Source: Streptomyces spinosisporus | Lineage (GTDB): Bacteria; Actinomycetota; Actinomycetes; Streptomycetales; Streptomycetaceae | DNA length: 64,000 nucleotides | Direction of reading: 5' to 3' | Assembly: GCF_022698145.1 (NCBI RefSeq) | Contig: NZ_JALDAX010000006.1 | Coordinates: 1-64,000, forward strand | Part shown: positions 8,707-62,082 of the stretch, one piece after another | Position numbering within the stretch: position 1 is the first letter of the stretch | How the letters are laid out: every line of letters begins with the position of its first letter | Notes under the pieces: model-generated | Seen by the model: only the letters and a program-made list of their open reading frames with translations | Database searches by the model: none | What the model was told of the DNA's origin: nothing | Translations under genes and position numbers: made by a program

Positions 8707-8758
8707 GAGGTCGGACCGCGTCCGGCATCCGGTGCCCAACTCCCGTACCAGTTACAGC

Positions 8759-8803: not shown

Positions 8804-8874
8804 TTGATCCGGTGAGCGCTTTGGGCAGCGCCGTTCCCCAGGTCAGCGCGGATTGCCGTCCCGGCGGCCCGGCC

Positions 8875-10352: not shown

Positions 10353-10422
10353 CCCTCCCGCTTCGACGGGGACTCGTCGACTCAACAAGGCACGCAATAT
10401 GCGCCGGCCAAAGACCCTGCCT

Positions 10423-11349: not shown

Positions 11350-11409
11350 GCGAAGTCACACTACTGAGGCAGCAGACGGAGCACCTTTCGCCCTACCGCA
11401 CATCGCAGT

Positions 11410-12151: not shown

Positions 12152-13621
12152 GTGAGCACGGTGACCGGCATCGAGCGCAGGGTTGTCGACACTGATCGGG
12201 GCAAGGTCAGGGGAATCGCGGAGGGCGAGGCGTTCTCCTTCCGCGGCATCCCGTACGCCGCATCACCCGTACGTGAGCTGCGGTTCGCGCCGGCGCGGCC
12301 GCACCCCGGGTGGACGGACGTGCGGGATGCGGCGCAGGCCGGCCCGTCCGTGCCGCAGGCGGCATCGCGGCTGGAGAGGGTGCAGGGTCGGCGGGTACCG
12401 GACTGGAACGAGGACGGCAGCCTGACCGTCAATGTCTTCACTCCTCGCTCCGCATTGCAGGACGGCGTGGTCCGCCCGGTCCTCGTCTGGTGGCACGGTG
12501 GCGGTTTCACCAGCGGCTCCGGTGGCTGGGACTGGTACGACGGCGCCCGCCTCGCCGCTCTGGGCGACATCGTGGTCGTAACTGCCAACTACCGTGTGGG
12601 GCCGCTGGGTTACCTCTATCTGCCCGAGATCGGTGCCGCCAACCTCGGCTGCCAGGACCAGGCTGCCGTTCTGCGCTGGGTCAGGGACAACATCGCCTCT
12701 TTCGGCGGAGATCCGCGCGCTGTCACAGTCGGCGGGCAGTCCGCCGGCGCCTACTCCTCCCTGATGCTCGCCCTCGATCCCGCGACGAACGCCTCCATCA
12801 CCCAGGTGTTGCTGGAGAGCGGCCCCTTCGGCCTGGCCCCGCAGGACCAACATCAGGCCACCGCGAACGCTGCCGCCTTTCTGCGCCTGCTCGACATCCC
12901 CGACAGCACCGACTACGGGAAGGCTCTGCGCGCCCTGCCCGCCGGGCAGTTGGTGGACGCCTACGGCCGACTCGCGGCGCAGCTCGCCGCTCCGGGCAAC
13001 ACAGCCCCACCGATGTACCCGGTCCTCGGCGCCCCAGGCATGCCGCGCACTCGGCAACAGGCGCTCACGGAGGGGTACTTGGAGGGCATGCCGCTGCTGA
13101 TCGGCACCACACGCGACGAGACTACGGCCTTCTTCGCCTTCGACCCGCGCATCCAGAACCTCACGCCGGACACCGCCGTGCAGGTGCTTACCGCCCAACT
13201 CGGCCCACAGGCCGCCAAGGACGTCTACGAGCGGCACGCCGCCCGGCTCCCGCAGGCAACACCGGCGCAGATCTTCATCGCGGTACAGACCGAAGGGCTC
13301 TTCCGCGACGGCTCGTTGGAGATTGCCGACCATCATGCTGCCGAAGGCAACACCACTTACGTCTACCAGTTCGACTACGGCTCCGCCGACGACCCGTACG
13401 CGCTGGGCGCCACCCACTGCGCCGAACTGCCCTTCCTCTTCAACACCTTCGACGCCTACCCCGACAGCCCCATCCTCGCCGGAGCCGACGCCTGCGATGC
13501 CCAGCGCGCCCTGGGCCGCGAATTCGCCACCGCCGTAGCCGAGTTCGTCGCCACCGGATCGTGCAGCGGCTGGCCTCCCTACGCCTCCGCAGCCGCGACC
13601 CGGATCCGTCATTTCGGGTAG
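12152..13621 (+). CDS. Type B carboxylesterase
   Basis: This 489-residue protein is a complete type B carboxylesterase. HGGGF at residues 115-119 forms the oxyanion hole, GGQSAGA contains the nucleophile Ser198, GTTRDETTAFF contains the acid Glu, and GATHCAELPFLF holds the His. No signal peptide is present, so it is probably cytoplasmic. Such enzymes hydrolyse esters of xenobiotics, lipids or metabolites (para-nitrobenzyl esterase type). It starts at a GTG. It lies 116 bases from the end of the converging TetR gene, and no other gene seems tied to it. Confidence 0.9.
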   Translation: MSTVTGIERRVVDTDRGKVRGIAEGEAFSFRGIPYAASPVRELRFAPARPHPGWTDVRDAAQAGPSVPQAASRLERVQGRRVPDWNEDGSLTVNVFTPRSALQDGVVRPVLVWWHGGGFTSGSGGWDWYDGARLAALGDIVVVTANYRVGPLGYLYLPEIGAANLGCQDQAAVLRWVRDNIASFGGDPRAVTVGGQSAGAYSSLMLALDPATNASITQVLLESGPFGLAPQDQHQATANAAAFLRLLDIPDSTDYGKALRALPAGQLVDAYGRLAAQLAAPGNTAPPMYPVLGAPGMPRTRQQALTEGYLEGMPLLIGTTRDETTAFFAFDPRIQNLTPDTAVQVLTAQLGPQAAKDVYERHAARLPQATPAQIFIAVQTEGLFRDGSLEIADHHAAEGNTTYVYQFDYGSADDPYALGATHCAELPFLFNTFDAYPDSPILAGADACDAQRALGREFATAVAEFVATGSCSGWPPYASAAATRIRHFG

Positions 13622-13737
13622 CCCAGGCGAACTGCTGCGAAGCGCAGCCTCGCAACCCCACCCTGTCCCGTCCCGCCACCCGTCGCGCGATCGCCGACGC
13701 CCCGCACCCGCACCCGCACCCGCAGGACACCGACCAT

Positions 13738-14370
13738 TCAGCCCCGAGTCGTATGCGCCGCAATGTGAGCGAGCATCGCGTCCAACGCCACCTCCAACGG
13801 CCTGACCTCACGCTGTAGTTGAGTCAGCAGAAGACCGCCCTGGAGCGCGGCCAAGGTGGCGAGGGCGAGCTCTTCGGGGTCGCCGTCGAGTTCGCCTCGG
13901 TCATGCATGGCCTGCAGACCGGAGCGGATGGCCGCCTCCCAGCGGACGAATCCGCTGGCCGCAGCGAGCCGGGCCTCTGGGTTCGTCTCGGCCACCTCGC
14001 TGCCCAGGGAGCCGATCGGGCAGCCGCCGCGGCACTGCAGCCGCAGCTGGTACTCGACCAGGGCGTCCCGCCAGCGCCGTAGACCCTCCATCGTGTCCAG
14101 CTCGGCGAACAGCGGCTCCTGCATGTCCAGCACCGACTGCGTCTGGTACTCGATCACGGCCAGGAGCAGTTCCTGCTTGTCCGAGAAGTAGTGGTAGACC
14201 TGCGAGCTGCTGACCCCGGCCGCGGCCCGCACGTCCTCAAGGGTCGCCTCCGTCACGCCCCGCTCGTACATGAGCTGCGCGGCCGCCGCGACGATCCGCC
14301 GGCGTGTCTCCTGCCCCTTGCGGGTCAGCTTGCGCTCCGGCCGCCGCCCTGCCTCAGTCCGGGTTCCCAT
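13738..14370 (-). CDS. TetR/AcrR family repressor
   Basis: This 210-residue regulator has the N-terminal helix-turn-helix TLEDVRAAAGVSSSQVYHYFSDKQELL and a ligand domain of the TetR_C_6-like type with CRGGCPIGSLGSEVAE. I chose the ATG at 14370 because it places the DNA-binding domain at the usual distance and the longer frame from 14436 would run across both operator copies. It is divergent from the short-chain dehydrogenase, and the two operator-like palindromes at 14392 and 14425 lie between them, so it most likely represses both its own gene and the dehydrogenase gene. Confidence 0.85.
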   Translation of the reverse strand: MGTRTEAGRRPERKLTRKGQETRRRIVAAAAQLMYERGVTEATLEDVRAAAGVSSSQVYHYFSDKQELLLAVIEYQTQSVLDMQEPLFAELDTMEGLRRWRDALVEYQLRLQCRGGCPIGSLGSEVAETNPEARLAAASGFVRWEAAIRSGLQAMHDRGELDGDPEELALATLAALQGGLLLTQLQREVRPLEVALDAMLAHIAAHTTRG

Positions 14371-48366: not shown

Positions 48367-49455
48367 TCAGTCTGCCAGCGCCACCAGTGGGAACGCGTCC
48401 ACTTCGGGGCGGTGTCGGGCCAGCGCAGCGCGCACCTGCTCGGTCAACCTCCAGTCGTAGCCCAGGGATTCCACGACGCAGCGTACGGTCGCGTAGTGGG
48501 TGGTGTGGTTGGTGGCGCGTTGGGCGTGGAGCCAGGTGTCGAGTTCGTCGAGGAAGGTGGCGGCGTCGATGCGGGCGCGTGTGGTGGGGCGTCGTCGGGA
48601 CTGGCGGTGTTCGCGCTCGACCTCGTCGAAGCCGTACAGCTTGAGGCTGATGTCCCGCGCGCCCGCCAGGGAGTCGGGGCAGGATTCCGCCAGGCCCTGG
48701 GCCAGGGGGTTGTGGTCCAGGGCCTTGGCGAGGGGCAGGTTCCAGACCCGGCTGCTGTGGTCGGTGAGTGGGAGTGGTCCGGATCTGGTGAGGCAGGGGC
48801 CGCGCAGCCCGGTGACGGCTGCGGCGAGCAGGGTGCTGGCTTCCGAGGGATGCCAGCGCAGGACGTCCGCCGTCCAGGGTGGGAGGGCCGGACCGAGAGC
48901 GGCGCCGTTGCCGGTGAGGCGGGGCAGCAGCGTGGTCTCGGGTATCTCCCCGTCCAGGCCCGGCCCGGCGACGTGGACGGTGGTGTCGACGTTCGCCAGA
49001 TGGCAGGCCGCGAGGACGAGCGCGTCGAGCAGGGGGCTGGCGAGCGTGGGTTCGTCGCCGTGGGCCAGGATGTCGCCGCCCATGTCCACCACGCTGATGT
49101 GGTCGGTGCCGAGGGCGTGGGCGGTGCGCTCGATCTGACCGGCGAGGTCTTCGACGCCCTTGTGGGGGTCGAGCAGCGCGAGCTTCGCCGGCAGGTGACC
49201 GGCGAGCCGGGGCAGGGTGGAGCCACGGGGCGCGACCGGCTGCGTGTCGGTGGTGATGACCGGCACCGGCAGGGTGCCGTGTTCGAGGCCGGTGAAGTCG
49301 TGTCCGGCGAGGGGGCCGGGCAGGGGATCCACGCTCGGGCGCTCCCAGCCGTAGGTGAGTACGACGGCGTCGGCTGCGGCGCGACGGCCCGCGTGGACGA
49401 GGGCGGTACCGATCGGGTCACCGCCGCCACCCGCCGCGATGAGCAGGTCGGTCAC
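48367..49455 (-). CDS. DUF1152 domain-containing protein
   Basis: This 362-residue protein matches DUF1152: DLLIAAGGGGDPIGTALVHAG, TYGWERPSVDPLPG, HISVVDMGGDILAHGDEPTL and SPLLDALVLAACHLA. The family is uncharacterised. A glycine-rich N-terminus and the VDxGGDxL motif suggest a nucleotide or phosphate-binding site, by inference. The GTG at 49455 overlaps the radical SAM stop by 4 bases, so the two proteins are made together. The larger open frame running on to 50778 is rejected as it lies over the next gene. Confidence 0.85.
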   Translation of the reverse strand: MTDLLIAAGGGGDPIGTALVHAGRRAAADAVVLTYGWERPSVDPLPGPLAGHDFTGLEHGTLPVPVITTDTQPVAPRGSTLPRLAGHLPAKLALLDPHKGVEDLAGQIERTAHALGTDHISVVDMGGDILAHGDEPTLASPLLDALVLAACHLANVDTTVHVAGPGLDGEIPETTLLPRLTGNGAALGPALPPWTADVLRWHPSEASTLLAAAVTGLRGPCLTRSGPLPLTDHSSRVWNLPLAKALDHNPLAQGLAESCPDSLAGARDISLKLYGFDEVEREHRQSRRRPTTRARIDAATFLDELDTWLHAQRATNHTTHYATVRCVVESLGYDWRLTEQVRAALARHRPEVDAFPLVALAD

Positions 49456-50888
49456 GAGGACGCTCGCGCGGTGCGGATGCCGGAGATGCCGATCGGTGTG
49501 CCCATGTGCTTGCGGGCGCGCCGGTTCCCGGCATGCAGGGCCTCGTAGTACTCGCGGTCGAGACGCACGACGGTGTCGGAGAAGAACATCCAGGACAGGA
49601 TGTCGCGGTACTTGAACCCGGTCGCGGTGAGCTGGACCCGGCGGCCGAGGCGGCGCAGGAGTCCGGTCTCCTCTGCGGCGTTCAGGATCGGCTCGAACAG
49701 ATGGGCCTTGTCCTGGTAGCCGAAGCGGTCCAGCTCGGCGAGGTCCAGGTCGAAGGTGTCCAGGACGAGACGCTTGCGGATGATCTCCTCGGGGTCGAGG
49801 ACGAAGCCGCTGACGGGCTGCAGTTGGTGGGCGTTCGCCTTGCTGATGTAGTCGGCGACCTCGGCCATCGACGGTTTGACGGAGCCCACCATGTAGTCGA
49901 GGACGCCGGTGTAGGAGCGGGCGCCGACGCCGAGTCCGAGCAGCGGCACACCGTGGAAGGTGAGCACCTTCTGCCTGTATCCGCCGCGGCCGAGCTTCTT
50001 GTAGCGGACGGAGCCCTCCTGGACGTAGCCGTGGTCGGTGAAGACCTGGCGGGCGTAGTCGTAGCGCTCGTACAGGTTCGGGGACTGGGCGTACTGGTAG
50101 GCGCCGGTCCGGGAGAACCAGGCGTCCGGGCGCACGGTCAGGAAGTAGGTGCTGATCGTGGACGGGCCGAGTGCGGCGAGTTCGTCGACGGACGTGCGCC
50201 AGGTCTCGTCGGTCTGGCCGGCGAAGCCCATGATGAGGTCGGTCGACAGATCCGGCAGGCCCATGTCCTGCACGATCTCGATGGCCTTGCGGATGACGTG
50301 TTCGCCCGCCTGGCCGCGCCCTGCCTCGCGGATCTCCTTCGGCACGAGCGACTGGATCCCGATGTTGGCCCGGGTCAGGCCGAAGCCCAACAGGCCCTCG
50401 AGGGTGGTGGGTTCGTTGACGATCGAGTCCGGTGTGGCCTCGATCGCCACTTCCTCCACGGTCGAGCGCCAGTTGGGATACACCTCGTCCAGCGTGCTGA
50501 ACAGCTGCTCGAAGTGGCGCAGGGACAGCAGGCTCGGGGTGCCGCCGCCGATGTAGACGGTGCGCAGCCTCCGGGCCCGGATGATGTCGGCGTGATCGCG
50601 CAACTGGGTGCACAGCGCGTCCACGTAGGCCGTGTAGACGTCCCCGTCCTCGCTGATGACGGTGTACAGGTTGCAGAAGCCGCACTTGTAGCGGCAGAAC
50701 GGCACGTGCAGATACAGGTTGAGCTCGGGCACCTGGTGGATGTCCAGGTCCTGGTTCCAGGCGTCCTCGATGGTCCAACGGCCGTCCAGCGGACGGTAGG
50801 TGGACCGTGACGGGTAGGAGTAGTTGTACGGCGGGATGACGCCCTGCCGGATGTACTCGATCAGCTGTGCGGCGTGGTGGCCGGTCAC
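49452..50888 (-). CDS. Radical SAM protein, HemN/HemW-like
   Basis: This 478-residue protein has the iron-sulfur motif CRYKCGFC (Cys65, Cys69, Cys72), preceded by LYLHVPFC as in HemN proteins, the SAM-binding motif YIGGGTPSLL, and LSTDLIMGFAGQTDETW. The C-terminal HemN-type domain is present. Proteins of this class include coproporphyrinogen dehydrogenases, heme chaperones and class C methyltransferases or cyclopropanases of natural-product pathways. Its place next to ATP-grasp and transport genes favours the last. The GTG at 50888 is the chosen start. Confidence 0.85.
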   Translation of the reverse strand: MTGHHAAQLIEYIRQGVIPPYNYSYPSRSTYRPLDGRWTIEDAWNQDLDIHQVPELNLYLHVPFCRYKCGFCNLYTVISEDGDVYTAYVDALCTQLRDHADIIRARRLRTVYIGGGTPSLLSLRHFEQLFSTLDEVYPNWRSTVEEVAIEATPDSIVNEPTTLEGLLGFGLTRANIGIQSLVPKEIREAGRGQAGEHVIRKAIEIVQDMGLPDLSTDLIMGFAGQTDETWRTSVDELAALGPSTISTYFLTVRPDAWFSRTGAYQYAQSPNLYERYDYARQVFTDHGYVQEGSVRYKKLGRGGYRQKVLTFHGVPLLGLGVGARSYTGVLDYMVGSVKPSMAEVADYISKANAHQLQPVSGFVLDPEEIIRKRLVLDTFDLDLAELDRFGYQDKAHLFEPILNAAEETGLLRRLGRRVQLTATGFKYRDILSWMFFSDTVVRLDREYYEALHAGNRRARKHMGTPIGISGIRTARASS

Positions 50889-51183
50889 GCGATGGTTCCC
50901 CTCTCGAAACTCTTGTGCCGGTTGGGTCGTCCGAGAGTCAATCCGCGACCGGTGCCAGGACCCCAGGCCCGATACCCACGAAACCTCGCACTGTTCCGGG
51001 CACCACCTGCTGTGCGATGACCCGAACTTCACCGGAGCGGTCGCTTCCGCAAAGGCCATGCCCCTACGATCCCGGCCGCGGCCGGTGATTGGAGCTTCCT
51101 ACAAGCCTGATCGCCGAATCGCCGCCCTGGTCTGGTGGTTACGTTCATGGCCCCGTCCCGGCGGGTGCGGTCTACTGCGCTGC
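50889..51183. promoter_or_regulatory. Divergent promoter region of the putative biosynthetic cluster
   Basis: These 295 bases separate the radical SAM operon from the ATP-grasp operon. Both promoters must lie here. I could not pick a convincing box pair or palindrome, and no ribosome site precedes the ATP-grasp GTG, so that message may be leaderless. Confidence 0.35.
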
Positions 51184-52416
51184 GTGAAGAAGATCCTGCT
51201 GATCGAAGCACTCGCAAACTCGGGCCCCTACGTGCTGGATGCCGCCCGCCGGCTCGGGGCGCACGTCTTCGTCGCCACGCACGAGGACGTCTACGAGAGC
51301 TACCCGGCCGCCCTGCGCGAGCAGATCCACGGCACGGTGTTCACCGATCTCACCGATCCCGACCGGGCGTTGACGGACATGGCCGCCTTCGCCGAGGCCA
51401 CCGGGATCGACGCGGTGGCCGGCTGCTGGGAGTTCTTCACCCCACTCGTCGCCCACCTCGCCCGCCGCCTGGGCCTGCCCGGCAACGACCCGCAACGCGC
51501 CCGGGCATGCCGCAACAAGGCGGAGATGGCCAAGGCCTTCTCCGCAGGCGGGGTCCCGGCGCCGCGCACGGTCGTCGTCCACGACCCGGAGCAGGCGGCG
51601 CGTGCCCTCGACCGCGCCGGCATCAAGTTCCCGGTGGTCGTCAAACCGGCCGAGCAGGGCGGCTCCTGGGGCGTCAGCGTGGTCGAAGGCCCGGCGGACC
51701 TCGACGCGGCCGTACGACATGCCCGGTCCTGGCCGATCGCCGCCCCGCACGGACTGCGCATGGACCCGCGTGTCGTCATCCAGGAGTACGTCTCCGGGCC
51801 GGAGTTCAGCCTCGACACGGTGGTCCGGCGCGGCGACTGCTTCCATCTGCCCTTGGTCGAGAAGCACACCACCGAGGGCGCTCACCGGGCCGAGATCGGT
51901 CACACCTGTCCCGCCGCTCTGCCGCCCGCCGACCTTCACGACCTGCGCGCGGCCACCGAACTGGCCCTGGGGGCACTCGGCATCCGCAACGGCGTCGCCC
52001 ACACCGAACTCAAGGTGTCGCCCGAGGCGGGCCCCGTCGTCATCGAGGTGGGTGCCCGTCTGCCCGGAGACCATCTCGTGGAGGTCGTGCGCCGTGCCTC
52101 GGGCATCGACGAAGCCCGCGCCTATCTGCAGGCCGTCCTCGACGAGAAGCCGGACGTCCCCGCCCCGCGGGAGGGAGCGTGCGCGATCCGGTTCCTCACC
52201 CCGCCGCGTGCCGGCACCTTCCAAGGGGTGACCGTGCGTGGCGCACACGCCGGTCTCGTCGACCGGCACATCTCCAGCGCACCCGGCGACCTGGTGGGCA
52301 GTGCCCGCGACAACTCCGCCCGCGTCGGCCATCTGCTGCTGACCGCCCCCACACCCGCCCAGGTCAACGCCGACGCCGACCGCGTACTCGCCCACACCCG
52401 CATCGAGGTGAGCTGA
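51184..52416 (+). CDS. ATP-grasp carboxylate-amine ligase 1 (L-amino acid ligase-like)
   Basis: This 410-residue protein starts MKKILLIEALANSGPYVL and has an ATP-grasp domain: KFPVVVKPAEQGGSWGVSVV binds ATP, RVVIQEYVSGPEFSLDTVV and VVIEVGARLPGDHL supply the metal-binding residues. The C-terminal 90 residues resemble the LAL_C2 domain of L-amino acid ligases such as BacD. It probably makes an amide bond between two amino acids or an amino acid and an acid. The GTG at 51184 has no clear ribosome site. The next ligase gene begins one base after its stop. Confidence 0.85.
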   Translation: MKKILLIEALANSGPYVLDAARRLGAHVFVATHEDVYESYPAALREQIHGTVFTDLTDPDRALTDMAAFAEATGIDAVAGCWEFFTPLVAHLARRLGLPGNDPQRARACRNKAEMAKAFSAGGVPAPRTVVVHDPEQAARALDRAGIKFPVVVKPAEQGGSWGVSVVEGPADLDAAVRHARSWPIAAPHGLRMDPRVVIQEYVSGPEFSLDTVVRRGDCFHLPLVEKHTTEGAHRAEIGHTCPAALPPADLHDLRAATELALGALGIRNGVAHTELKVSPEAGPVVIEVGARLPGDHLVEVVRRASGIDEARAYLQAVLDEKPDVPAPREGACAIRFLTPPRAGTFQGVTVRGAHAGLVDRHISSAPGDLVGSARDNSARVGHLLLTAPTPAQVNADADRVLAHTRIEVS

Positions 52417-52417
52417 C

Positions 52418-53671
52418 ATGCAGCGCATCGCCTTCCTCAGGTCCGCGGACATCAGGCGGGCCGACCCCTACATCCACGGCATCTCCCCCGCCCTGGCCGA
52501 ACTCGGAGCGCAGGCCCGCCTGTTCCACACCCATCGTGACGACTGCGGACCCGATCTCTTCCCGGGGACGAGCGAGCGGCTCGACCCGGCCGCGACCCCC
52601 GACGAGTTCGTGGACCGCGTGCGCGCGTGGGGAGCCGACGCCGCCGTGTCCATCTCCCTGCCGGACGAGAACGCCCTGCGCGACGCCGTCGTCAAGACCA
52701 GGCTCGAAGCACTCGGCATCCGCACGATCATGACTCCCCTCGCCGCCACCCGCGTCCTGTGCGACAAGTGGGAGACCAAGCGCGCCCTGACCGCACACGG
52801 CCTGACCACCCCGCCCGCCGTCCTGGTCGACAGCGACCTCCTCAACGACCGTGCGCTGCCCGTCCCGGCCTACCCCGACGCCGTCCGTCTCGCCGCCCGG
52901 GACATCGGCTTCCCCCTCCTGGCCAAGCCGCTGTGGGACTCCACCAGCATGGGCATCCGCTTCATCCCGGACCCGGACGCCCTGAACGCCTACCTGGCCG
53001 ACCCGCCCGCGGCACATGCCGTCCTGGAGAAGTGCGTCGCCGGACGGCTCTGCTCCGTCGACATCGTCGGTGCCGGCGGCCACTACACCGTCCAGCCGCT
53101 CATCTGGACGGGCACCGCCGGAGGCCCTCCCAGGTTCACCTTCGACGACCTGCGTCACGTCTCCCCGGCCCCGCGCGACGACTTCCGGGCCACCGCGCAG
53201 CGCCTGGTCCGGCTGTGCGCGGCGCTCGGCGTCGAGGGGTCCGTCAACGTCGACATGATCCACGCCGACGGCGTCTACCACGTCCTGGAGATCAACCCCC
53301 GTATCGGCGGCGCCACCACCCTGTCCATCGCCGCCGGCGGACTCAACACCTTCGCCGCGCTCCTCGACATCCTCGCCGGCACCTGGCCGACCCGGACCGA
53401 AGCCCCCGCCGAACGCTTCGCGATCGAGTGCCTCACCGCCAACCCCACCCCCGGCTTGCTCACCGAACTCCGCAGCCGCATCGACCTCGTCACCTGCCAC
53501 GACCTGGTCATCGACGGCCACGACCACGGAGGGATCCTCACCTTCACCGTGGAACCGGGCGACGAGCGGCGCGCGGTGAAGGACCTGACCGAACTGAGCG
53601 CGCAGACCGGCTTCATGGCACCCTCCATGCTCGACAAGATCCGCCGCCTCCTGACCCCCACGGACCGGTGA
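52418..53671 (+). CDS. ATP-grasp ligase 2
   Basis: This 417-residue protein has an N-terminal PreATP-grasp-like domain (MQRIAFLRSADIRRADPYIHG) and an ATP-grasp core with IGFPLLAKPLWDSTSMGIRF, HAVLEKCVAGRLCSVDIVG and HVLEINPRIGGATTLSIAAGG carrying the metal-binding Glu and Asn. It is of the D-Ala-D-Ala/carbamoyl phosphate synthetase-like type, different from ligase 1. Together they could join three building blocks. It overlaps the MFS gene by 4 bases (GTGA). Confidence 0.85.
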   Translation: MQRIAFLRSADIRRADPYIHGISPALAELGAQARLFHTHRDDCGPDLFPGTSERLDPAATPDEFVDRVRAWGADAAVSISLPDENALRDAVVKTRLEALGIRTIMTPLAATRVLCDKWETKRALTAHGLTTPPAVLVDSDLLNDRALPVPAYPDAVRLAARDIGFPLLAKPLWDSTSMGIRFIPDPDALNAYLADPPAAHAVLEKCVAGRLCSVDIVGAGGHYTVQPLIWTGTAGGPPRFTFDDLRHVSPAPRDDFRATAQRLVRLCAALGVEGSVNVDMIHADGVYHVLEINPRIGGATTLSIAAGGLNTFAALLDILAGTWPTRTEAPAERFAIECLTANPTPGLLTELRSRIDLVTCHDLVIDGHDHGGILTFTVEPGDERRAVKDLTELSAQTGFMAPSMLDKIRRLLTPTDR

Positions 53672-55062
53672 GCCTCCCCGCCGGCCGACGGTCGACACGC
53701 CGTCGCATCGTCCGAGGTCTGCCGGGCAGCGACCGGCACGGTGCCCGGCAGGCCCCCGCCCCTCCCCGCGACCTGCGCACCAGGGCCGGTCTGCCCGACC
53801 TCACCGGAGCCGGCCGCTTCGTCGCCGCGCACGCGGTGGACAGCCTCGGCACCGGGCTCCTGTTCGCCTTCACCGTCGTCTACCTCGCCCACACCACCCG
53901 CCTCCCCCTCGCCGACATCGGTGCGGCGCTCACCCTCGGAAACCTCCTCGCGCTGCCCGCCCCCGCGCTCGGCGCGATCCTGCTGGACCGCCACGGACCG
54001 AAAGCGGTCGTGGCCACCGCGAACCTCGTCTGCGCCGCGGGGTTCACCCTGTTCCTCGTGATCCGCTCCGCGTGGCAGATCAGCCTCGCCTACCTCGTCG
54101 TACAGGCCGGGATCAATCTGTACTGGACGGCCGCCCGCATGCTGGTGCCGCTGGCCGCCGCGCCCGGTGAGGAACGCCTGTGGTTCGGGTTCATCTCCTC
54201 CCTGCGCAACGTCGGCATCGGCGCGGGAGCCGCTGTGTCCGCCGTGGCGCTGGCCCTGTTCGGCCCCGGAAGCCTGCACGTCTTCATCGCCGCGAACGCG
54301 GGCACGTTCCTGTGCGCGGCGGTGCTGTTCCTCACCTGGAAACCCGCCAGAAGTACCTGGAAACCCGCCAGAAGTCCCAGCCCACCGGATGTACCCGGCC
54401 CACCGAAGGACGCCGCCACGCCGGTCCGGCGGTCGAGCTGGGCGTCCGTTCTCCGCGACGGCCGCTACCTTCTACTGGTCGCGGCCAACCTCGCGTTCGT
54501 CCTCGCGCAGATGGTGCCTCCGGTCCTGCTCGCCGTATACGTCACCGACATCCTGCGCGCGGGCACCTGGCTCCCCGGCGCCCTCCTGGTCGTCAACACG
54601 GCCGCGGTCGCCACTCTCACTCCGGCCCTCACCCGCCGCTCGGCCCGTCATCGCCCGCAGCGAGCGATCGCGGCCGGCTTCCTCGTCGCGGCCTTCTCCT
54701 TCGCCCTGTTCGCCGCTCCCCTGGCCTGGCATCGCGCGCCGACCTGGATCGCGGCCACCCTCCTGGTGACGGCCATGCTGCTCTTCACCCTTTCGGAGAT
54801 CCTCAACTCCCCCGCGCTGAACGAACTCTCCGTCACCCTGGCCCCCGCCCAGGCAGGCGGCCGTCACCAGGCCGCCTTCCAACTCTCCTGGTCCGTCGGC
54901 GGCGCGGCGGCACCCGTCGTCCTCACCTCACTCCTGGGCCGGGAACCCCTTCTCCCTTGGCTGCTCCTGGCGGTCCTCAGCCTGACGGCAGCCCTCCTGA
55001 CCCGCGCCCTCGCAGCACCTGCCCGCCCCGACACCTACGGCCCGGAGGAGCCTGCGCCGTGA
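53668..55062 (+). CDS. MFS transporter
   Basis: This 464-residue protein has about twelve hydrophobic segments in two halves, with AHAVDSLGTGLLFAFTVVYLA near the start, LLDRHGPKAVVATANLVCAA as the loop 2-3 region and LFTLSEILNSPALNELSV in the second half. It is probably the exporter of the cluster product. A 21-base tandem duplication in the central cytoplasmic loop encodes TWKPARS twice (54334-54375). The GTG at 53668 overlaps the ligase stop, and its own stop overlaps the next gene. Confidence 0.85.
   Translation: MSLPAGRRSTRRRIVRGLPGSDRHGARQAPAPPRDLRTRAGLPDLTGAGRFVAAHAVDSLGTGLLFAFTVVYLAHTTRLPLADIGAALTLGNLLALPAPALGAILLDRHGPKAVVATANLVCAAGFTLFLVIRSAWQISLAYLVVQAGINLYWTAARMLVPLAAAPGEERLWFGFISSLRNVGIGAGAAVSAVALALFGPGSLHVFIAANAGTFLCAAVLFLTWKPARSTWKPARSPSPPDVPGPPKDAATPVRRSSWASVLRDGRYLLLVAANLAFVLAQMVPPVLLAVYVTDILRAGTWLPGALLVVNTAAVATLTPALTRRSARHRPQRAIAAGFLVAAFSFALFAAPLAWHRAPTWIAATLLVTAMLLFTLSEILNSPALNELSVTLAPAQAGGRHQAAFQLSWSVGGAAAPVVLTSLLGREPLLPWLLLAVLSLTAALLTRALAAPARPDTYGPEEPAP
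54334..54375 (+). repeat. 21-base tandem duplication inside the MFS gene
   Basis: ACCTGGAAACCCGCCAGAAG plus T occurs twice, at 54334-54354 and 54355-54375, with no mismatch, and codes for TWKPARS twice in the central loop. The perfect match points to a recent event. Confidence 0.9.
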
Positions 55063-56060
55063 TCCTCACCCTCGTCGACGACATCCTGGACATCCCCGCC
55101 GCCGAGTGGGACGCCCTCGCCTCCCCTGCCGGCCTGTACCTCTCCCACCAGTGGCTCGCCGCCCAGCAGCAGGACCCCACCGCTGAGGTGCACTACGCCG
55201 TGGTCCACGACGGCGGCCACCTCATCGCCGCCGTACCGCTGTACGTGGTGGACACCGAGCCCAACTCCCTCTACCGCGTGCACGAGATCGTCCCCGGCCG
55301 CACCCCGGCCAGGACCCTGCTCGCGGGAGCCCGCCGCGGCTACCTCAACGCCCCTCTCCTCCACCCCCGCCTCGCCCCCGCCCGCCGCCGCGAGGCACTG
55401 AGTCACCTCGTCACCGCGGCCGGATCCCTCGCCTCCGCCCGGGCCGCACAGCCGTGGTGGCTCTACGTCACCGACACGGAGGCCGCCGAACTCGCGGCGG
55501 CCTGCGGCACCCGGCCCGTACGGCTGTCGCAGGACGCCCGTATCCCGCTGCCCGGCAGCACCTTCGACGACTATCTCGCCGGTCTGCCGTCCAAGCGACG
55601 CGTCAGCATCCGCCGCGAACGCCGCGCCTTCGCCGAAGCCGGGTACGAACTGCGCACCCTCCGCCTCTCCGAGTGCGCCGGCACCGCCGGGGCGCTGCTC
55701 GCCCAACTCCAGGAACGCCACGGCCACTCGGCGGACCCGGCCGCCATGGCCGGCCTGCTGCGCGACCAGGCCGCCGGCATGGCCGACACCGGCACCGTCC
55801 TCGCCGCGTACGCGGACGACCGCATGGTCGCCTTCAGCCTCTACTACCACCACGCGGGGACCGTCTGGCTTCGCGCCACCGGCTACGACTACGCACGCCT
55901 GCGCGCCGCGCACGAGTACTTCAACCTCGTCTACTACCTCCCCATCGAGGCCGCCTACGCCCACTGCGCCACCGCCCTCCACCTCGGCATGGAATCCCTC
56001 CACGCCAAGACCCTCCGGGGAGCGGTCACCTCGTCGCTGTGGGCCGTGCAAGGGCGGTGA
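55059..56060 (+). CDS. FemAB/GNAT-like transferase
   Basis: This 333-residue protein has the double-GNAT layout of the FemAB/Acetyltransf_6 group: LYLSHQWLAAQQQD, HYAVVHDGGHLIAAVPLYVVD, SKRRVSIRRERRAFAEAGYEL and MVAFSLYYHHAGTVWLRATGYD with the final LHLGMESLHAKTLRG. Such proteins move aminoacyl or acyl groups; some use aminoacyl-tRNA to extend peptides. In this operon it may add an amino acid to the ligase product. The GTG at 55059 overlaps the MFS stop. It ends the operon, 36 bases from a gene on the other strand. Confidence 0.8.
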   Translation: MILTLVDDILDIPAAEWDALASPAGLYLSHQWLAAQQQDPTAEVHYAVVHDGGHLIAAVPLYVVDTEPNSLYRVHEIVPGRTPARTLLAGARRGYLNAPLLHPRLAPARRREALSHLVTAAGSLASARAAQPWWLYVTDTEAAELAAACGTRPVRLSQDARIPLPGSTFDDYLAGLPSKRRVSIRRERRAFAEAGYELRTLRLSECAGTAGALLAQLQERHGHSADPAAMAGLLRDQAAGMADTGTVLAAYADDRMVAFSLYYHHAGTVWLRATGYDYARLRAAHEYFNLVYYLPIEAAYAHCATALHLGMESLHAKTLRGAVTSSLWAVQGR

Positions 56061-56096
56061 GGAGCCGGCCTCCGGTGCGGTGCACCGCTGGGCGCG

Positions 56097-57287
56097 TCAC
56101 AGGTCCTGGTCCGGTACCGGCTGCCCGAGCAGGTAGGCCCCCGCGGCCTTGTACATGCTCGGCTTCAGCTGGATGTGTGCCGTCATGGTGTGTGCGTCTC
56201 GGAACCGGCGTTGGAGGGGGGAGGTCTCGTAGACGGCCGCGCCGCCGCCAAGTTCGTACATCGCGTCGGTCACCTCCGTGGCGACGCGTGCCGCGTGCGT
56301 CCCGGCCAGACGCAGTCCGACCCGCAGGTGCTGCGGCACCGGTTCGCGCGACTGCGCAGCCTGCCAGGCGTCCTCGACCGCTTGGTAGTACAGCAGGCGG
56401 GCGGCCCGCAGGGATGCTTCCGCCTGGGCCACGGCGATCTGTGCGGCGGACCGCTCGGCCAGGCCGCGGCTCGATCCACGGGCGTTCTTGTCCCCTGCCA
56501 GTGCAGTCAGGTCGTCGATGGCTCCGCGGGCGTTGCCGAGCGCGGCGGCAGCGACCGACAGGGCGAAGAAGGCGATGGCGGGGAACCGGTGGAGCGGTTC
56601 GGCGTCGGCCGGGGGCCCCTGGACGAGCGACAGGACGCGGTGGCCGGGCACGAACACCTCGTCTGCGACGGCGTCGTGACTGGCCGTGCCGCGCAGGCCG
56701 CCCGTGTGCCAGGTGTCGAGAATCTCCAGCTCTTCCTTGGGGAGCGCGACCACCCGCATGACGGGCGAACCCGGCTGCTCCTCGCCGGGGTCCAGCAGGC
56801 ACCCCGCGAACAACCAGTCGGCGTGGGAGATGCCACTGCAGAACGCCCAGCGGCCCGACACGTTGACACCGCCCTGCACGGTCCGGGCCCGGGCGGTGGG
56901 CGCCCACACGCCCGAAGCGACGGACCGCGGGTCGCCGAACACCTCCTCGGTGCCCTTCGACGGCAGATAGGCGCCCAGGAGACTCGACGTCATCGCGATG
57001 GACACGCACCAGCCGGCGGAGGCGTCACCTCGTGCGATCGTCTCCGCGCAGCGCAGCATCACCGAGGGCGATGCCATCGCACCGCCCACCGAGCGCGGCA
57101 CCCCGGTGCGCAGCAGTCCGTCGTCGACGAGCCTGCGGACCAGGTCACCGGCGAGAGCTCGCTGCTCCTCGGTGACCGGCGCCAGGGAGCGGGCCAGTCG
57201 GGCACTGTCGAGCGCCGACCGGTACAACTCCTCGTGGAGCAGTTCTTGATCGCCGGAGATGGCGAACTCATCTGCTTCCAAGGCCAT
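56097..57287 (-). CDS. Acyl-CoA dehydrogenase-fold flavoprotein (hydroxylase-like)
   Basis: This 396-residue protein has the acyl-CoA dehydrogenase fold: GLLRTGVPRSVGGAMASPSVML, GDASAGWCVSIAMTSSLLGAYL, RWAFCSGISHADWLFAGCLLD and TWHTGGLRGTASHDAVADEVFV, with the C-terminal region TMTAHIQLKPSMYKAAGAYLLG. The pattern resembles flavin-dependent hydroxylases of the HsaA/DszC group, not fatty-acid dehydrogenases, so it may oxidise a nitrogen or aromatic carbon. A separate flavin reductase is needed and none is seen. It lies 98 bases after the flavoprotein gene. Confidence 0.75.
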   Translation of the reverse strand: MALEADEFAISGDQELLHEELYRSALDSARLARSLAPVTEEQRALAGDLVRRLVDDGLLRTGVPRSVGGAMASPSVMLRCAETIARGDASAGWCVSIAMTSSLLGAYLPSKGTEEVFGDPRSVASGVWAPTARARTVQGGVNVSGRWAFCSGISHADWLFAGCLLDPGEEQPGSPVMRVVALPKEELEILDTWHTGGLRGTASHDAVADEVFVPGHRVLSLVQGPPADAEPLHRFPAIAFFALSVAAAALGNARGAIDDLTALAGDKNARGSSRGLAERSAAQIAVAQAEASLRAARLLYYQAVEDAWQAAQSREPVPQHLRVGLRLAGTHAARVATEVTDAMYELGGGAAVYETSPLQRRFRDAHTMTAHIQLKPSMYKAAGAYLLGQPVPDQDL

Positions 57288-57385
57288 GTGTCATCCTCGC
57301 TCGGGTGCCGGGCAGGTCCTGCGCCCGATCGTACGACCGGCCCGCCGGGGATCAAGGGCGGGCGGTGACGATGCGCCAACGGCCC

Positions 57386-59068
57386 CTACTCGCGCTGCCG
57401 TTCGTCGGCTGCCGCCTCGTTCATCAACTCGGCGATGTCGGTGGGAATGGGCGGCACGGGTTCGCGACGCACCCCGGTCGACGGGGACCACACCAGGTTC
57501 ACCGTCAGGTCCGGGTCGACACCGGGGTGATCGGACCGGTTGTGGCAGCCGCGCGACTCCCGTCGCTCCAGCGCGCATGCCAGCGTCGCGCGGGCGGCGA
57601 GGACGCCGGCCCTGAGGTCGTAGGCGTACGCGAGTTCCTGGAAACCGCCGATGTCGACGTGCACGCTCGCGTCCGCCATGCGGGCCTCGATCTCGTCGAG
57701 TTCGCGCAGCCCGGCTGTGAGCCCGGCCTCGTCCCGGACGACACCGGCGTACTCCGTCATCAGATGACGCACCGACCGCTGCAGCCCATGGACGCTCTGG
57801 CCGCCGTCGGCGGACAGAAGCCCGTTCACCTCCCCCTCCGCGGCACGGACCGCCGCGGGCGACCGTCGCTGAGCGGTGAGCCCGGCCGAGTACTCCGCTG
57901 CGGCACGACCGGCGAGACGGCCGTGGACAAGCAGCTCCAGCAGCGAGTTCGCCTCCAGACGGCTCGCGCCGTGCAGACCGCTCGCCGCCTCCCCGATCAC
58001 GAAGAGCCCGTTGACGTCGGTGCCGTGGTCCTCGGGCCGGACGCGGACACCGCCCAGGCTGTACTGGGCCGTTGGCACGACCTCGACGGGGTCTTGAGTG
58101 ATGTCGAGCATCTGCACGTTCAGCAGGGTCTGGTGCACGCGCGGCAGCCGCGTCAGGATCGTCTCGGGCGGCAGGTGGGACAGGTCGAGCCATACGCCGC
58201 CTGCCTGACTGCCGCGGCCCTCCTTGATCTCGGTGTACGACGCGAGCGCCGCTCTGTCGCGACTGGGGAGGTCCGGCTGTTCGGCGTCGTAGCGCGTCAT
58301 GAACCGCTCGCCGAGGTTGTTGAGCAGCACCCCGCCCTCACGGTGCGCCGCCTCGCTCACCAGCATGCCGGCCGCGTTCTCCGGCTTGATCAGGCCGAAG
58401 GGGTGGAACTGCACCAGCTCGGGGTCGCACACCCGGGCACCGGCCTCGACGGCGAGGCGGAAGGAGTCGCCGGTGTTCTCGTGGCGACGAGAGGAGGTGT
58501 GCCGCCAGATGCGGGTGTGTCCGCCGGTCGCGAGGATCACGGAGTCGGCGTGCACGAGACAGCGCGAGCCGTCGACGAGATCGAATCCGTAGGCACCGAA
58601 CACCGTGCCGTCGTCGACCAGCAGCCGGGTGACGTAAAGGTTCGGCAGGACGGGAATGGCGAGGTGCTTCGCGCGTGCGCGGAGCGCTCGCTGCACCTCC
58701 ACACCGGTGGAGCCGGCCGACGCGGTGCCGCTCCGGCCGTCGACATGCCTGCCGTAGCGCACGACGTCGTGGAATCCCTGTGCGGCATGGCGGGCCACGA
58801 TCTCCGCGGTGCGCGGGTCGGCCAGCAGGCGGCCCTCCAGCAGGGTGTCGGCCGCGTGCCGCTCCCATGTGCCGTGGGCGTGGGCGGCAGCGGGTGCCTC
58901 GTCGAAACCGCCGGCTGGCACGGCCGTGTGGACGCCGTCGGCCGTGTGTCTGGCCACCGCGATGACCGCGACACCGGCCTCGGCGACCTCGATGGCCGCT
59001 CGCAGGCCCGACCCACCCGTTCCCACCACGAGGACGGACGTGGCCACCTGGTGTCCGAGCGACGACAT
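57386..59068 (-). CDS. FAD-binding protein of the fumarate reductase/aspartate oxidase type
   Basis: This 560-residue flavoprotein has the FAD motif VVGTGGSGLRAAIEVAEAG at residues 14-32, GSRCLVHADSVILATGGHTRIW, FHPFGLIKPENAAGMLVSEA, REGGVLLNNLGERFMTRY and DLPSRDRAALA, whose Arg is the usual catalytic proton donor, and a C-terminal domain as in SdhA and NadB. It oxidises or reduces a dicarboxylate-like substrate. With the adjacent hydroxylase it may make an unusual building block. No iron-sulfur or cytochrome partner is encoded nearby, so it is not a succinate dehydrogenase. Confidence 0.8.
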   Translation of the reverse strand: MSSLGHQVATSVLVVGTGGSGLRAAIEVAEAGVAVIAVARHTADGVHTAVPAGGFDEAPAAAHAHGTWERHAADTLLEGRLLADPRTAEIVARHAAQGFHDVVRYGRHVDGRSGTASAGSTGVEVQRALRARAKHLAIPVLPNLYVTRLLVDDGTVFGAYGFDLVDGSRCLVHADSVILATGGHTRIWRHTSSRRHENTGDSFRLAVEAGARVCDPELVQFHPFGLIKPENAAGMLVSEAAHREGGVLLNNLGERFMTRYDAEQPDLPSRDRAALASYTEIKEGRGSQAGGVWLDLSHLPPETILTRLPRVHQTLLNVQMLDITQDPVEVVPTAQYSLGGVRVRPEDHGTDVNGLFVIGEAASGLHGASRLEANSLLELLVHGRLAGRAAAEYSAGLTAQRRSPAAVRAAEGEVNGLLSADGGQSVHGLQRSVRHLMTEYAGVVRDEAGLTAGLRELDEIEARMADASVHVDIGGFQELAYAYDLRAGVLAARATLACALERRESRGCHNRSDHPGVDPDLTVNLVWSPSTGVRREPVPPIPTDIAELMNEAAADERQRE

Positions 59069-59283
59069 GGAACCTCCTGTGACAGCGGACCGACGAGATC
59101 ATGGGCAGTGGTCGACCGGACAGCGGCTCTGTTTGTGACAGTCTTCGGGGATTTTTCGGCGTGGAGTGCGCCACCGTTCCCGGACAGCGCGGGCGGGGTG
59201 TGCTGGGTATCGTTGCAAGGCTCGTTCCGACACCGTCGAGGGACGCTTTTTCCTCCCCGGATCCCGCCAAGGAGCCGCGTCGC

Positions 59284-62082
59284 ATGATCGCCAGCCCGCT
59301 TCCCGATCTGGTCGGCCGGCAACGCGAGTGCGCGGCGCTCGACGATCTGCTGGTCGGCCTGCGCGAGGGCGCATCGCGGGTCCTGGCGCTCCGCGGCGAG
59401 GCCGGCATCGGGAAGTCGGTGCTTCTGGAGTACGTGGCCGCGCAGGCATCCGGGCTGAACGTGACCCGGGCGCGCGGCATCGAGGCCGACATGGAGCTGC
59501 CCTACGCGAGCCTGCACCAGCTGTGTGCGCCGTTCCTGGACGAGCTGGAAGAGCTCCCGGGGCCCCAACGCGACGCCCTGCGCGTGGCGTTCGGCATGGC
59601 GGCCGGGGACCCGCCCGACCGTTTCCTGGTCGGCCTCGCCGTGCTCTCCCTGCTCACCCGGGCCTCCGAGCCCCGGCCGCTGCTCGTCCTCGTCGACGAC
59701 GCGCAGTGGCTGGACCAGGTGTCCCTGCAGACCCTGGAGTTCGTGGCCCGGCGGCTGCTCGCGGAGGCGGTCGCGATGGTGTTCGCGGTACGCGACCCCG
59801 AGGGGCAGGCCGCGCTCGGCGGTCTGCCGGAGCTGCGGATCGGCGGTCTCGACAGCGCGGCAGCCGGTGAGCTCCTCGAGGCCACCGTCGGCGGCCGGCT
59901 GGAGCAGCGGGTCCGGGACCGGTTCGTGGCCGAGATGCACGGCAACCCGCTGGCGCTGCTCGAGTTCTCCCGCGGCCGCAGCGCCGCCGAACTGGCGTAC
60001 GGCATGGACGCGTCGAGTTCGCCGGGCGTCCAGGGGCCGGTCGCGAGCCGGGTCGAACAGGACTTCGCCGGCCGGCTCGTGTCGCTGCCGGAGGTGACCC
60101 GGACCCTGCTGCTGATCGCCGCGGCGGAGCCGGTCGGCGACGCGCGTCTGCTGGTCCGCGCGGCGGCCTCGCTCAAGGTCACGCCCGATGCCGCACCGGC
60201 CAAGGCGGCCGGGCTGATCGAGTTCGGTGAGTCCGTACGGTTCCGGCACCCGCTGGTGCGGTCGGCGGTCTACCACGGAGCCGAGCCCGAGGAGCGCCGG
60301 GCGGTGCACCGGGCGCTGGCCGAGGCCACGGACCCGGTCCTCGACCCCGACCGGCGCGCCTGGCACGCCGCCCAGGCGGCCGACGGGCCGGACGAGGACG
60401 TGGCCGCGGGGCTGGAGCAGGCCGCCGACCGTGCGCGTCGGCGCGGCGGCATCGCGGCCGAAGCGGTACTGCTGGAGCGCGCGACCGAGGTGACGCCGGA
60501 CCCCTGGCCGCGTGGCCGCCGGGCTCTTGCGGCGGCCGAGGCCCACTTCTCGGCCGCCGCACCCGACCGCGCCTCGGAGCTGGCGGCCGTGGCGGAGATG
60601 TATCCCCTCACCGCCCTGGACCGCGCCCGCCTGGCGCGCCTGCGGGCCAGGCTCCTCTTCGCCCGCAGCCGCAGCGACGAGGCGGCGCCCCTGCTCCTGG
60701 AAGCCGCCGCACAGTTCACTGCGGCCGGATCCCCACTGGCGCGGGAGACGTACCTGGAAGCGATCAGCGCGACCATCTTCGCGGGCCGGGTGCACGGCCC
60801 GACGGGCGCCCGCGCCGCCGCGATCGCGGCCCGGGGATCCGGTGCGCCCTCGTCCGGTTCCCTGGCCGCGGACCTGTTGCTGGACGGTGTGGCGGCGCTC
60901 CTCACCGACGGCAACGAGACCGGTGTCCCGGCCCTGCGCGACGCGTTGGAGCCGCTCGCGCGCGAGGAGCTCGGCACCCGCGAGGCGACAGTGCGGTGGC
61001 TCCTGCTGGCTCCGGTCGCGCTCGAAGCGTTCATTCACTACGCCTGGGACCTGCACGCATGGGACACGCTGTCGAGTCGCGCGGTGCGCCTGGCCCGCGA
61101 CATCGGGGCGCTCGGCACGCTGCCGCCCGCGCTGATCTACGCCGGCGGGGTGCACATCCACTACGGCGACTTCGCCAAGGCGGACCGGATGATCGAGGAG
61201 GCCGACGCGATCGCCGCCGCGACCGGCCACGCCCCGCACAAGTACGCGGCGCTCGTCCTGGCCGCGTGGCGGGGCGAGGCGGATGTGGCGGCCGCCCTCA
61301 TCGAAGAGGCCACGAAGAGGGCCGTGCAACGGGGCGAGGCGGGCCTGCTGGGCGCCATGGGCTACATCCAGGGTGTGCTGTTCAACGGCCTGGCCCGCTA
61401 CGAGGAGGCCATGGTGGCCGCTCGCACCGGCGTCGAGCACGACGGGTTCAACTTCACGGGCCTGTCGCTCGTCGAGCACGTCGAGGCCGCGGCCCGGTGC
61501 GGCGAGCTCGACCAGGCCCGCGCCTCACTGGCCCGGCTCGTCGAACTGACCCGAGCCGCCGATTCCGGCTGGGCCCGCGGCGCGAGCGCCCGCAGCCAGG
61601 CTCTGCTCACCGACGGTGACGAGGCCGACCGGTTGTACCGGACCGCGATCGAGGAGTTCGGCCGCGGCGGTGTCGCCGTGGAGGTCGCCCGCAGCCATCT
61701 GCTGTACGGCGAGTGGCTGCGCCGCGGACGCCACCGCGCTCTGGCGCGCGAACACCTTCGTACGGCTCACGAGATGTTCGCCGCGATGCCGGCCCACGCG
61801 TTCGCCGAGCGGGCCCGCCGCGAACTGATCGCCACCGGCGAGCACGTCCGGACGCGCAGTGCCACGCCCGCGAGCACCCTCACCCCCCAGGAGACCCAGG
61901 TCGCGACGCTCGCCGCCGAGGGCATGACGAACGCGCAGATCGGTGCGGAACTGTTCATCAGCCCGCACACCGTGGAATGGCATTTGCGCAAGGTGTACGC
62001 GAAGCTCGGGATCACCTCACGTCGCTCGTTGCCGGACGCTCTCGCAGGCGCCGGAAGCGCCGGCACCGTGAACGCCGGCTGA
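59284..62082 (+). CDS. LuxR family transcriptional regulator with AAA domain (LAL type)
   Basis: This 932-residue regulator begins with an AAA/NACHT-type domain: Walker A GEAGIGKS at residues 38-45 and Walker B LLVLVDDAQWLD near 131-142. The middle is a long helical repeat region with TPR-like segments. The last 70 residues form a LuxR helix-turn-helix: LTPQETQVATLAAEGMTNAQ and SPHTVEWHLRKVYAKLGI. Such regulators often activate antibiotic pathways. It is divergent from the flavoprotein gene, so it is a good candidate activator of the cluster. The ATG at 59284 follows AAGGAG. Confidence 0.9.
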   Translation: MIASPLPDLVGRQRECAALDDLLVGLREGASRVLALRGEAGIGKSVLLEYVAAQASGLNVTRARGIEADMELPYASLHQLCAPFLDELEELPGPQRDALRVAFGMAAGDPPDRFLVGLAVLSLLTRASEPRPLLVLVDDAQWLDQVSLQTLEFVARRLLAEAVAMVFAVRDPEGQAALGGLPELRIGGLDSAAAGELLEATVGGRLEQRVRDRFVAEMHGNPLALLEFSRGRSAAELAYGMDASSSPGVQGPVASRVEQDFAGRLVSLPEVTRTLLLIAAAEPVGDARLLVRAAASLKVTPDAAPAKAAGLIEFGESVRFRHPLVRSAVYHGAEPEERRAVHRALAEATDPVLDPDRRAWHAAQAADGPDEDVAAGLEQAADRARRRGGIAAEAVLLERATEVTPDPWPRGRRALAAAEAHFSAAAPDRASELAAVAEMYPLTALDRARLARLRARLLFARSRSDEAAPLLLEAAAQFTAAGSPLARETYLEAISATIFAGRVHGPTGARAAAIAARGSGAPSSGSLAADLLLDGVAALLTDGNETGVPALRDALEPLAREELGTREATVRWLLLAPVALEAFIHYAWDLHAWDTLSSRAVRLARDIGALGTLPPALIYAGGVHIHYGDFAKADRMIEEADAIAAATGHAPHKYAALVLAAWRGEADVAAALIEEATKRAVQRGEAGLLGAMGYIQGVLFNGLARYEEAMVAARTGVEHDGFNFTGLSLVEHVEAAARCGELDQARASLARLVELTRAADSGWARGASARSQALLTDGDEADRLYRTAIEEFGRGGVAVEVARSHLLYGEWLRRGRHRALAREHLRTAHEMFAAMPAHAFAERARRELIATGEHVRTRSATPASTLTPQETQVATLAAEGMTNAQIGAELFISPHTVEWHLRKVYAKLGITSRRSLPDALAGAGSAGTVNAG

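Follow-up and report, generated by a model that had tools for sequence, protein, structure and literature searches.

What does a compact group of genes in a sequenced stretch of Streptomyces spinosisporus make, and where does the group end? The window, meaning the whole stretch of 64,000 nucleotides that was analysed (assembly GCF_022698145.1, contig NZ_JALDAX010000006.1, positions 1 to 64,000), comes from a 9.4-Mb genome. We found that six of its genes, encoding a HemN-like radical S-adenosylmethionine (radical SAM, rSAM) enzyme, a DUF1152 protein, two ATP-grasp ligases, a major facilitator superfamily (MFS) transporter and a FemAB-like transferase, form a conserved biosynthetic gene cluster, in that the set is kept while its flanks change. 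As a tentative reading, we propose that this cassette is a compact natural-product pathway, in which a nucleobase-derived unit made by the rSAM enzyme is joined to amino acids and exported. The parts of the cassette are as follows.

48367..49455, minus strand: DUF1152 protein (PF06626), 362 aa; Pfam 226 bits; AlphaFold model
49452..50888, minus strand: HemN-like rSAM enzyme, 478 aa; CxxxCxxC motif; Pfam Radical_SAM
50889..51183, no strand: divergent intergenic region of 295 bp; promoters presumed; no small open reading frame common to the orthologues
51184..52416, plus strand: ATP-grasp ligase 1; ATPgrasp_N, ATP-grasp_4 and LAL_C2 domains; L-amino-acid ligase family; IEVGAR motif
52418..53671, plus strand: ATP-grasp ligase 2; ATP-grasp_3 domain; intact EINPR motif; distant relative of D-Ala-D-Ala ligase
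53668..55062, plus strand: MFS transporter, presumed exporter; Pfam MFS_1
55059..56060, plus strand: FemAB_like transferase; Pfam FemAB_like; model matches Sbb17/Sba18 and FemX

The genes are arranged in two divergent operons, the minus-strand one holding the rSAM gene and then the DUF1152 gene with an overlap of 4 bases, and the plus-strand one holding ATP-grasp 1, ATP-grasp 2, the MFS gene and the FemAB-like gene. One free base separates the two ligase genes, and the MFS gene overlaps ATP-grasp 2 by 4 bases, as does the FemAB-like gene the MFS gene. The rSAM gene, the most conserved of the six, has a G+C content of 66.8% against 71-73% for the other five.

Conservation was followed in a first sample of 293 genomes of the host's order, host included, from which 15 regions were fetched. 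A full-length rSAM orthologue is present in 14 other genomes at 73-92% identity; one further genome (G268) has a fragment only, and the remaining matches at E<=1e-40 lie at 30-34% identity. All 14 loci with a full orthologue keep the DUF1152-rSAM and ATP-grasp 1-ATP-grasp 2-MFS-FemAB arrangement of the window, except that in L040 (G061) the FemAB-like gene is missing at a contig end; L039 has an additional MFS gene between the rSAM and ATP-grasp 1 genes. Few flanking genes are common to these loci, and the flanks differ in most strains. A second genome scan gave 40 rSAM loci, in which 9 of the 14 strains recur. Close orthologues (73-92%), all from Streptomycetaceae, make up 30 of the 40; 25 of these have all six genes, 4 are cut by contig ends and 1 (L050) has no DUF1152 gene. 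Since the six genes stay together across 73-92% rSAM identity, chance grouping is not an issue. Genes were called heuristically from codon-position G+C, by which the DUF1152 genes of L043 and L044 were missed; tblastn and translation show them. A phylum-wide search found the rSAM gene in 3 of 396 genomes, all of the host's genus and one the host itself. Neither the rSAM nor the ATP-grasp 2 gene was found in the plasmid records searched, nor the rSAM gene in the viral contigs.

The gene content and tight spacing given in the original prediction, made from the window's letters, agree with the coordinates and Pfam families. That prediction had staked the cluster idea on conservation of the set as a unit elsewhere, and the set is conserved at 14 of 14 loci; it also holds up as to a conserved unit for biosynthesis and export, in which two intact-looking, predicted ATP-grasp ligases stand with a transferase whose model has a FemX fold. 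Its statement that there is no precursor peptide gene stands within the spaces of the cassette and the 500-bp flanks searched, where the search for small open reading frames (ORFs) gave no family shared across the loci, either in the rSAM-ATP-grasp 1 gap (25 loci) or in the 500 bp beyond DUF1152 (29 loci) or FemAB (27 loci). The largest such family, in 9 of 25 loci of one subclade, shares its rival frames too and thus looks like DNA conservation. A graspetide or other ribosomally synthesised and post-translationally modified peptide was considered and rejected, there being no conserved precursor-peptide gene in the gaps of the cassette or 500 bp beyond its ends.

Departures from the standard set were also observed. 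In three variants (L053, L054, L217), ATP-grasp 1 lies beyond DUF1152, and a dioxygenase, a second MFS protein and a protein that matches no Pfam family are present; the dioxygenase is assigned to PF10014 by Pfam in L053 and by similarity in L054 and L217. A second MFS gene is also added in L072 and L073. By their FemAB-like genes, L053 and L054 fall with the clade of the window (Shimodaira-Hasegawa-like approximate likelihood-ratio test, SH-aLRT, 99.8). The rSAM data (approximately unbiased test, p 4e-42) and the DUF1152 data (p 0.007) reject this grouping, which was picked after its identities had been looked at. By these comparisons, genes have been exchanged between cassettes. All trees here are of a quick type with support by SH-aLRT only, and L058, whose ATP-grasp 1 frame reads as fused, was excluded from the tree and alignment of that ligase.

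Next, we examined the enzymes individually. ATP-grasp 1 scores above the Pfam cut-offs for PF18130, PF13535 and PF18603 and is assigned on this basis to the L-amino-acid ligase (LAL) family; among PDB sequences it matches the L-amino-acid ligases BL00235 (3e-24) and BacD. Relatives of it also occur in a cluster of another kind in the host's genus, at four loci (L138, L140, L142, L144), where we observe an MFS gene, condensation-like and adenylation-like genes (by eye) and a fused ATP-grasp-like protein, Pfam having been run on L140. ATP-grasp 2 has an intact EINPR motif and is by sequence a distant relative of D-Ala-D-Ala ligase. The best NCBIfam matches of both proteins fall under cut-off, and both, having intact motifs, are predicted ligases. 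The original prediction would also have failed had the ligases fallen in clades with primary-metabolism roles, of which these scores show no indication. The AlphaFold model of the FemAB-like protein (predicted local distance difference test, pLDDT, 92.6) is predicted to have a FemX-type double-GNAT fold: its top Foldseek matches are Sbb17, Sba18 and then FemX (E 1.5e-13 to 8.6e-12), with Sbb17 the best PDB match (E 1.5e-13, template modelling scores 0.64/0.73). Sbb17 and Sba18, known here from their PDB titles as aminoacyl-tRNA-dependent peptide synthases, and FemX share about 17% identity with the protein, for which use of tRNA is a prediction.

The rSAM enzyme scores under every NCBIfam cut-off tried: STM4012 (NF006067) 268.7 of 380 bits, HemN 116.8 of 325, HemW 129.6 of 205 and HutW 135.4 of 400. 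It is thus best described as STM4012-like by score, yet outside the STM4012, HemN, HemW and HutW families by cut-off. Its family profile matches HemN (1.6e-35) and the methyltransferase NocN (7.2e-30) over the radical SAM core, which places it beside the HemN-like (class C) enzymes HemN, NocN and C10P, from which it differs in having distant relatives that occur with PurA-like or GuaA-like genes. For the DUF1152 protein, the AlphaFold model (pLDDT 94) has a Rossmann-like core; no match was found in the PDB by sequence, nor by Foldseek at E<=0.001. DUF1152 genes occur in 14 of 296 genomes of the phylum, host included, and because their contexts differ, the function cannot be read from the neighbours. 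The host has a second DUF1152 gene (L088, C34), which, like its counterparts L109 and L112, lies near integrative-element-like genes seen by eye (a replication initiator, and an integrase in 2 of 3). In other actinobacteria (L106-L108, L110, L111, L113-L115), DUF1152 comes after a conserved gene of ~200-235 aa, in most cases with cysteine-synthase-like and JAMM-like genes nearby (by eye), a context unlike the cassette.

Two separate pointers, both drawn from gene neighbourhoods, suggest nucleotide chemistry. The first is a sister cluster, reached through ATP-grasp 1 relatives without the rSAM gene, in nine genomes of the host's genus (L139, L141, L143, L172, L173, L174, L213, L215, L218). Here the same ligase pair, at 40-50% identity, stands with the same MFS transporter in 7 of 9 loci, and beside it are genes for ThyX, a LOG-type protein, a 2-oxoglutarate (2OG) oxygenase and a xanthine/uracil permease, the first three being there instead of rSAM and DUF1152. 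Pfam assigns Thy1, Lysine_decarbox (LOG) and 2OG-FeII_Oxy in L139 and L141, with the permease in L139; the ThyX match in L174 is short only. ThyX transfers a methyl group to C5 of a uracil nucleotide, LOG proteins free the base of a nucleoside monophosphate, and the methyl group of thymine is oxidised by some 2OG enzymes; the sister cluster therefore reads as a modified-base maker. No FemAB-like match was found in the nine stretches fetched, and the sister cluster was not matched to any described cluster in this analysis. In L218 there is, in addition, a protein related to the L053 dioxygenase (PF10014).

The ligases themselves separate by cluster type. ATP-grasp 2 is found in 24 of the 293 genomes, 15 with the rSAM cassette, 6 of ThyX type and 3 as remnants, namely a full ATP-grasp 2 with only the start of ATP-grasp 1 (L170), a broken ATP-grasp 2 (L171) and a fragment (L175). 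A second sample gave 28 of 392 genomes, 7 of them already in the first and 21 new, comprising 15 of rSAM type (two on short contigs), 3 of ThyX type and 3 lone or broken, among these a broken copy in L220. As 11 of the 15 new rSAM-type genomes are strains already in the 40-locus scan, the fresh genomes number ten, of which 4 are of rSAM type, 3 of ThyX type and 3 lone or broken. Both ligase trees put the standard rows of rSAM type into one group and the six rows of ThyX type into another (SH-aLRT 99 and 98 for ATP-grasp 2; 100 and 95 for ATP-grasp 1). The five variant rows (L053, L054, L055, L072, L073) are placed on the ThyX side by ATP-grasp 2; in the ATP-grasp 1 tree, which contains four of them, these stand with the rSAM side. 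The branches of L143 and L172 are long.

The second pointer comes from ten distant rSAM loci (40-66% identity) without the ligases. A PurA-like or GuaA-like gene adjoins the rSAM gene or lies one gene off in 8 of the 10. A PurA-like gene directly neighbours the rSAM gene of L074 (Streptosporangium) and L078 (S. cylindrosporus) and lies at a distance of one gene in L084, a Levyibacteriota bin; a GuaA-like gene is beside the rSAM gene in L074 and in five Clostridial loci (L079, L080, L081, L083, L086). Curated cut-offs are not reached by the PurA-like protein of either L074 or L078, nor by the C-terminal GuaA model in L079. L087 ends just after the rSAM match and has the HAD, DUF362 and PfkB genes of its kin. 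Other neighbours in L078 include deoxynucleotide-kinase-like (DNMK-like, 30 bits), HD/YfbR-like and PNP genes.

Several features of these distant loci are recorded in their own right. In L078, positions 8186-14169 form a stretch of low G+C at third codon positions, with kinase-like, PurA-like, PNP-domain and HD/YfbR-like genes around the rSAM relative (48%), and are reminiscent of deoxynucleotide modification islands. The Clostridia bins L079, L080, L081, L083, L086 and L087 share a recurrent HAD-DUF362-PfkB-rSAM-long GMP-synthase-like set (L087 being cut after rSAM); the gene that separates PfkB from rSAM is of TIGR04076, by a family scan on L079 only. L084 carries PurA, DUF362, an rSAM gene with an N-terminal extension, HAD and PfkB.

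The simplest account joining both pointers is that the rSAM enzyme, with DUF1152, stands in for ThyX, LOG and 2OG as the maker of the base unit. The rSAM enzyme would modify a nucleotide or nucleobase and DUF1152 would process its product, for example by hydrolysis; ATP-grasp 1, being of the amino-acid ligase type, and ATP-grasp 2 would then attach amino acids, the FemX-fold enzyme might add one further aminoacyl group from a charged tRNA, and the MFS protein would export the product. All substrates, the sequence in which the steps occur and the derivation of the unit from a nucleobase are inferred. Passages of PMC6050322 describe HemN-like enzymes able to attach carbon from SAM to sp2 carbons, and an rSAM enzyme acting in this way would parallel ThyX. 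The original prediction of a modified di- or tripeptide, made and exported, stands as regards a conserved unit of biosynthesis and export, and the nucleobase context suggests a product that may be more than such a peptide.

A number of observations weigh against this pathway. No recognised nucleotide enzyme is among the six genes, and the nucleotide link suggested here draws on what lies next to relatives of 40-66% identity and on ligases that share 40-50%. In L050 (sp. SID486) DUF1152 is missing from the cassette, with only a 57-bit match elsewhere in the genome, so that this protein may be dispensable; in structural comparison its model placed PIG-L/LmbE-type deacetylases on top, a borderline result (Z 8.2, root-mean-square deviation 3.9, 179 aligned residues). 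HPDD, the typical metal motif of the latter, was not visible in the DUF1152 alignment. Tandem-GNAT acetyltransferases also match the FemAB-like model, less well (E 1.9e-10 and weaker). Among the sister loci, L143 and L218 have no MFS match and their ligases lie apart. Outside both kinds of cluster, L212 and L219 carry a lone, intact-looking ATP-grasp 2. The ATP-grasp 1 relatives of L138, L140, L142 and L144 (50-54%), no more distant than those in the sister cluster, stand with carbamoyltransferase-like and adenylation-like genes and no nucleobase sign, so that ATP-grasp 1 alone points nowhere. With the Clostridial loci being close kin, the 8 of 10 purine-enzyme loci perhaps represent four lineages. 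PurA of L084, GuaA of L074 and the whole protein of L079 pass ordinary PurA or GMP synthase cut-offs, and L075 (59%) has neither gene, carrying instead a haem-oxygenase-like protein and a deaminase, with another deaminase seen by eye.

A rival reading, that of the original prediction, is a product built of amino acids only, which we consider unlikely: the rSAM enzyme would C-methylate or otherwise modify a residue, the ligases would join the di- or tripeptide and the FemAB-like enzyme would cap it for export. Such a product would suit the LAL family membership of ATP-grasp 1, the lack of a nucleotide gene in the cassette, the ATP-grasp 1 relatives in clusters without nucleobase genes and the variants L053, L054 and L217, whose added PF10014 dioxygenase belongs to a family that we take to be amino-acid hydroxylases. 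Against it stands the occurrence of the same ligase pair, in 9 genomes, beside ThyX, LOG-type, 2OG and permease genes, as does the presence of PurA, GuaA, DNMK-like, PNP and PfkB genes among the other neighbours of the rSAM family. We judge it improbable that SAM itself is the source of the unusual unit, as an adenosyl or methylene adduct of a two-SAM HemN-like reaction whose adenosyl-amino-acid-like product the ligases extend; the window enzyme is HemN-like and the carbon addition in the passages cited above would allow it, but the partner methyltransferase of the HemN-like two-component cyclopropanase (C10P/C10Q), C10Q, has no counterpart among the six genes. A cell-wall, resistance or primary-metabolism module, with the FemAB-like and ATP-grasp proteins acting on peptidoglycan-like precursors, is highly improbable, since the kinship of two cassette proteins to FemX and D-Ala-D-Ala ligase by fold or sequence stands against a patchy distribution (14 others of 293 genomes), flanks differing in most strains, and a transporter, remnants in other strains and exchange between cassettes that fit an accessory cluster and not a core function.

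Extending the nucleobase-peptide pathway proposed above, it is conceivable, if rather doubtful, that the cassette belongs to a new class with interchangeable modules, in which a shared ligase pair (and transporter) is fed either by ThyX-LOG-2OG or by rSAM and DUF1152. The rSAM family would then be nucleotide-modifying, also with PurA-like or GuaA-like partners in Streptosporangium, Clostridia, the Levyibacteriota metagenome bin and the possible deoxynucleotide-modification island of S. cylindrosporus. If true, these proposals would describe a small, widely spread and easily cloned six-gene pathway, assign a function to an rSAM family, set DUF1152 in a context, and indicate that base-modifying enzymes of different kinds can supply one and the same ligase pair. 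They would also provide a mining handle for nucleobase-peptide compounds, and make the substrate of the HemN-like rSAM family directly testable.

Finally, we compared the cassette with known pathways. The nearest known logic is that of pseudouridimycin (pum/sap) of Streptomyces, for which passages of PMC10127198 and PMC8724604 describe PumK, an ATP-grasp ligase, and PumM as attaching glutamine and guanidinoacetate to a modified nucleoside. Two amide ligases act there and two ATP-grasp ligases are predicted here, whereas the TruD-like pseudouridine synthase, oxidase/aminotransferase pair and amidinotransferase of pseudouridimycin are not among the six genes, and the cassette instead has a HemN-like rSAM enzyme, DUF1152 and a FemX-fold enzyme. 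In the dipeptide pathways of L-amino-acid ligases (BacD of bacilysin, BL00235, DdaF of dapdiamide), the ligase is of the same family as ATP-grasp 1, which has the IEVGAR motif as in BL00235 and scores under the NCBIfam cut-offs of BacD (57 of 850 bits) and DdaF (43 of 840); the cassette adds a second ligase from another ATP-grasp family, and the rSAM enzyme. The open PubMed Central literature, searched by title or abstract start and with subscription papers and MIBiG outside its scope, gave no paper describing the six-gene cluster, and it gave 0 papers on DUF1152, STM4011/4012/4014 or COG4034/PF06626. To our knowledge, the names of the carrier strains have no convincing link to a known product. 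The cassette looks like an uncharacterised pathway akin to those of ligase-built small peptides or peptidyl nucleosides.

To the right of the cassette lie three further genes that had been counted as part of the cluster and are rejected as parts of it here.

56097-57287: acyl-CoA-dehydrogenase-like protein; Pfam Acyl-CoA_dh
57386-59068: FAD protein, fumarate-reductase-like; Pfam FAD_binding_2 and Succ_DH_flav_C
59101-62082: LuxR regulator; Pfam AAA_16 and GerE

None of the three was found near any of the 14 orthologue loci of the host's order, searched in stretches of 14-20 kb at E<=1e-8 and >60 bits, and among the 25 complete loci of the second scan (E<=1e-6, >45 bits) the acyl-CoA-dehydrogenase-like and FAD genes were found in 0. 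Because these genes are absent around the orthologues, the unit ends at 56060 and not at 62082; the extent of 48367-62082, and with it the membership of both flavoproteins and of the LuxR regulator (0 of 14 loci), had to be given up in favour of six genes at 48367-56060. The family names originally assigned to the three proteins are those that Pfam returns. Matches to the LuxR protein occur in 2 of the 25 complete loci, L059 (31-32%) and L082 (43% over the C-terminal 148 residues).

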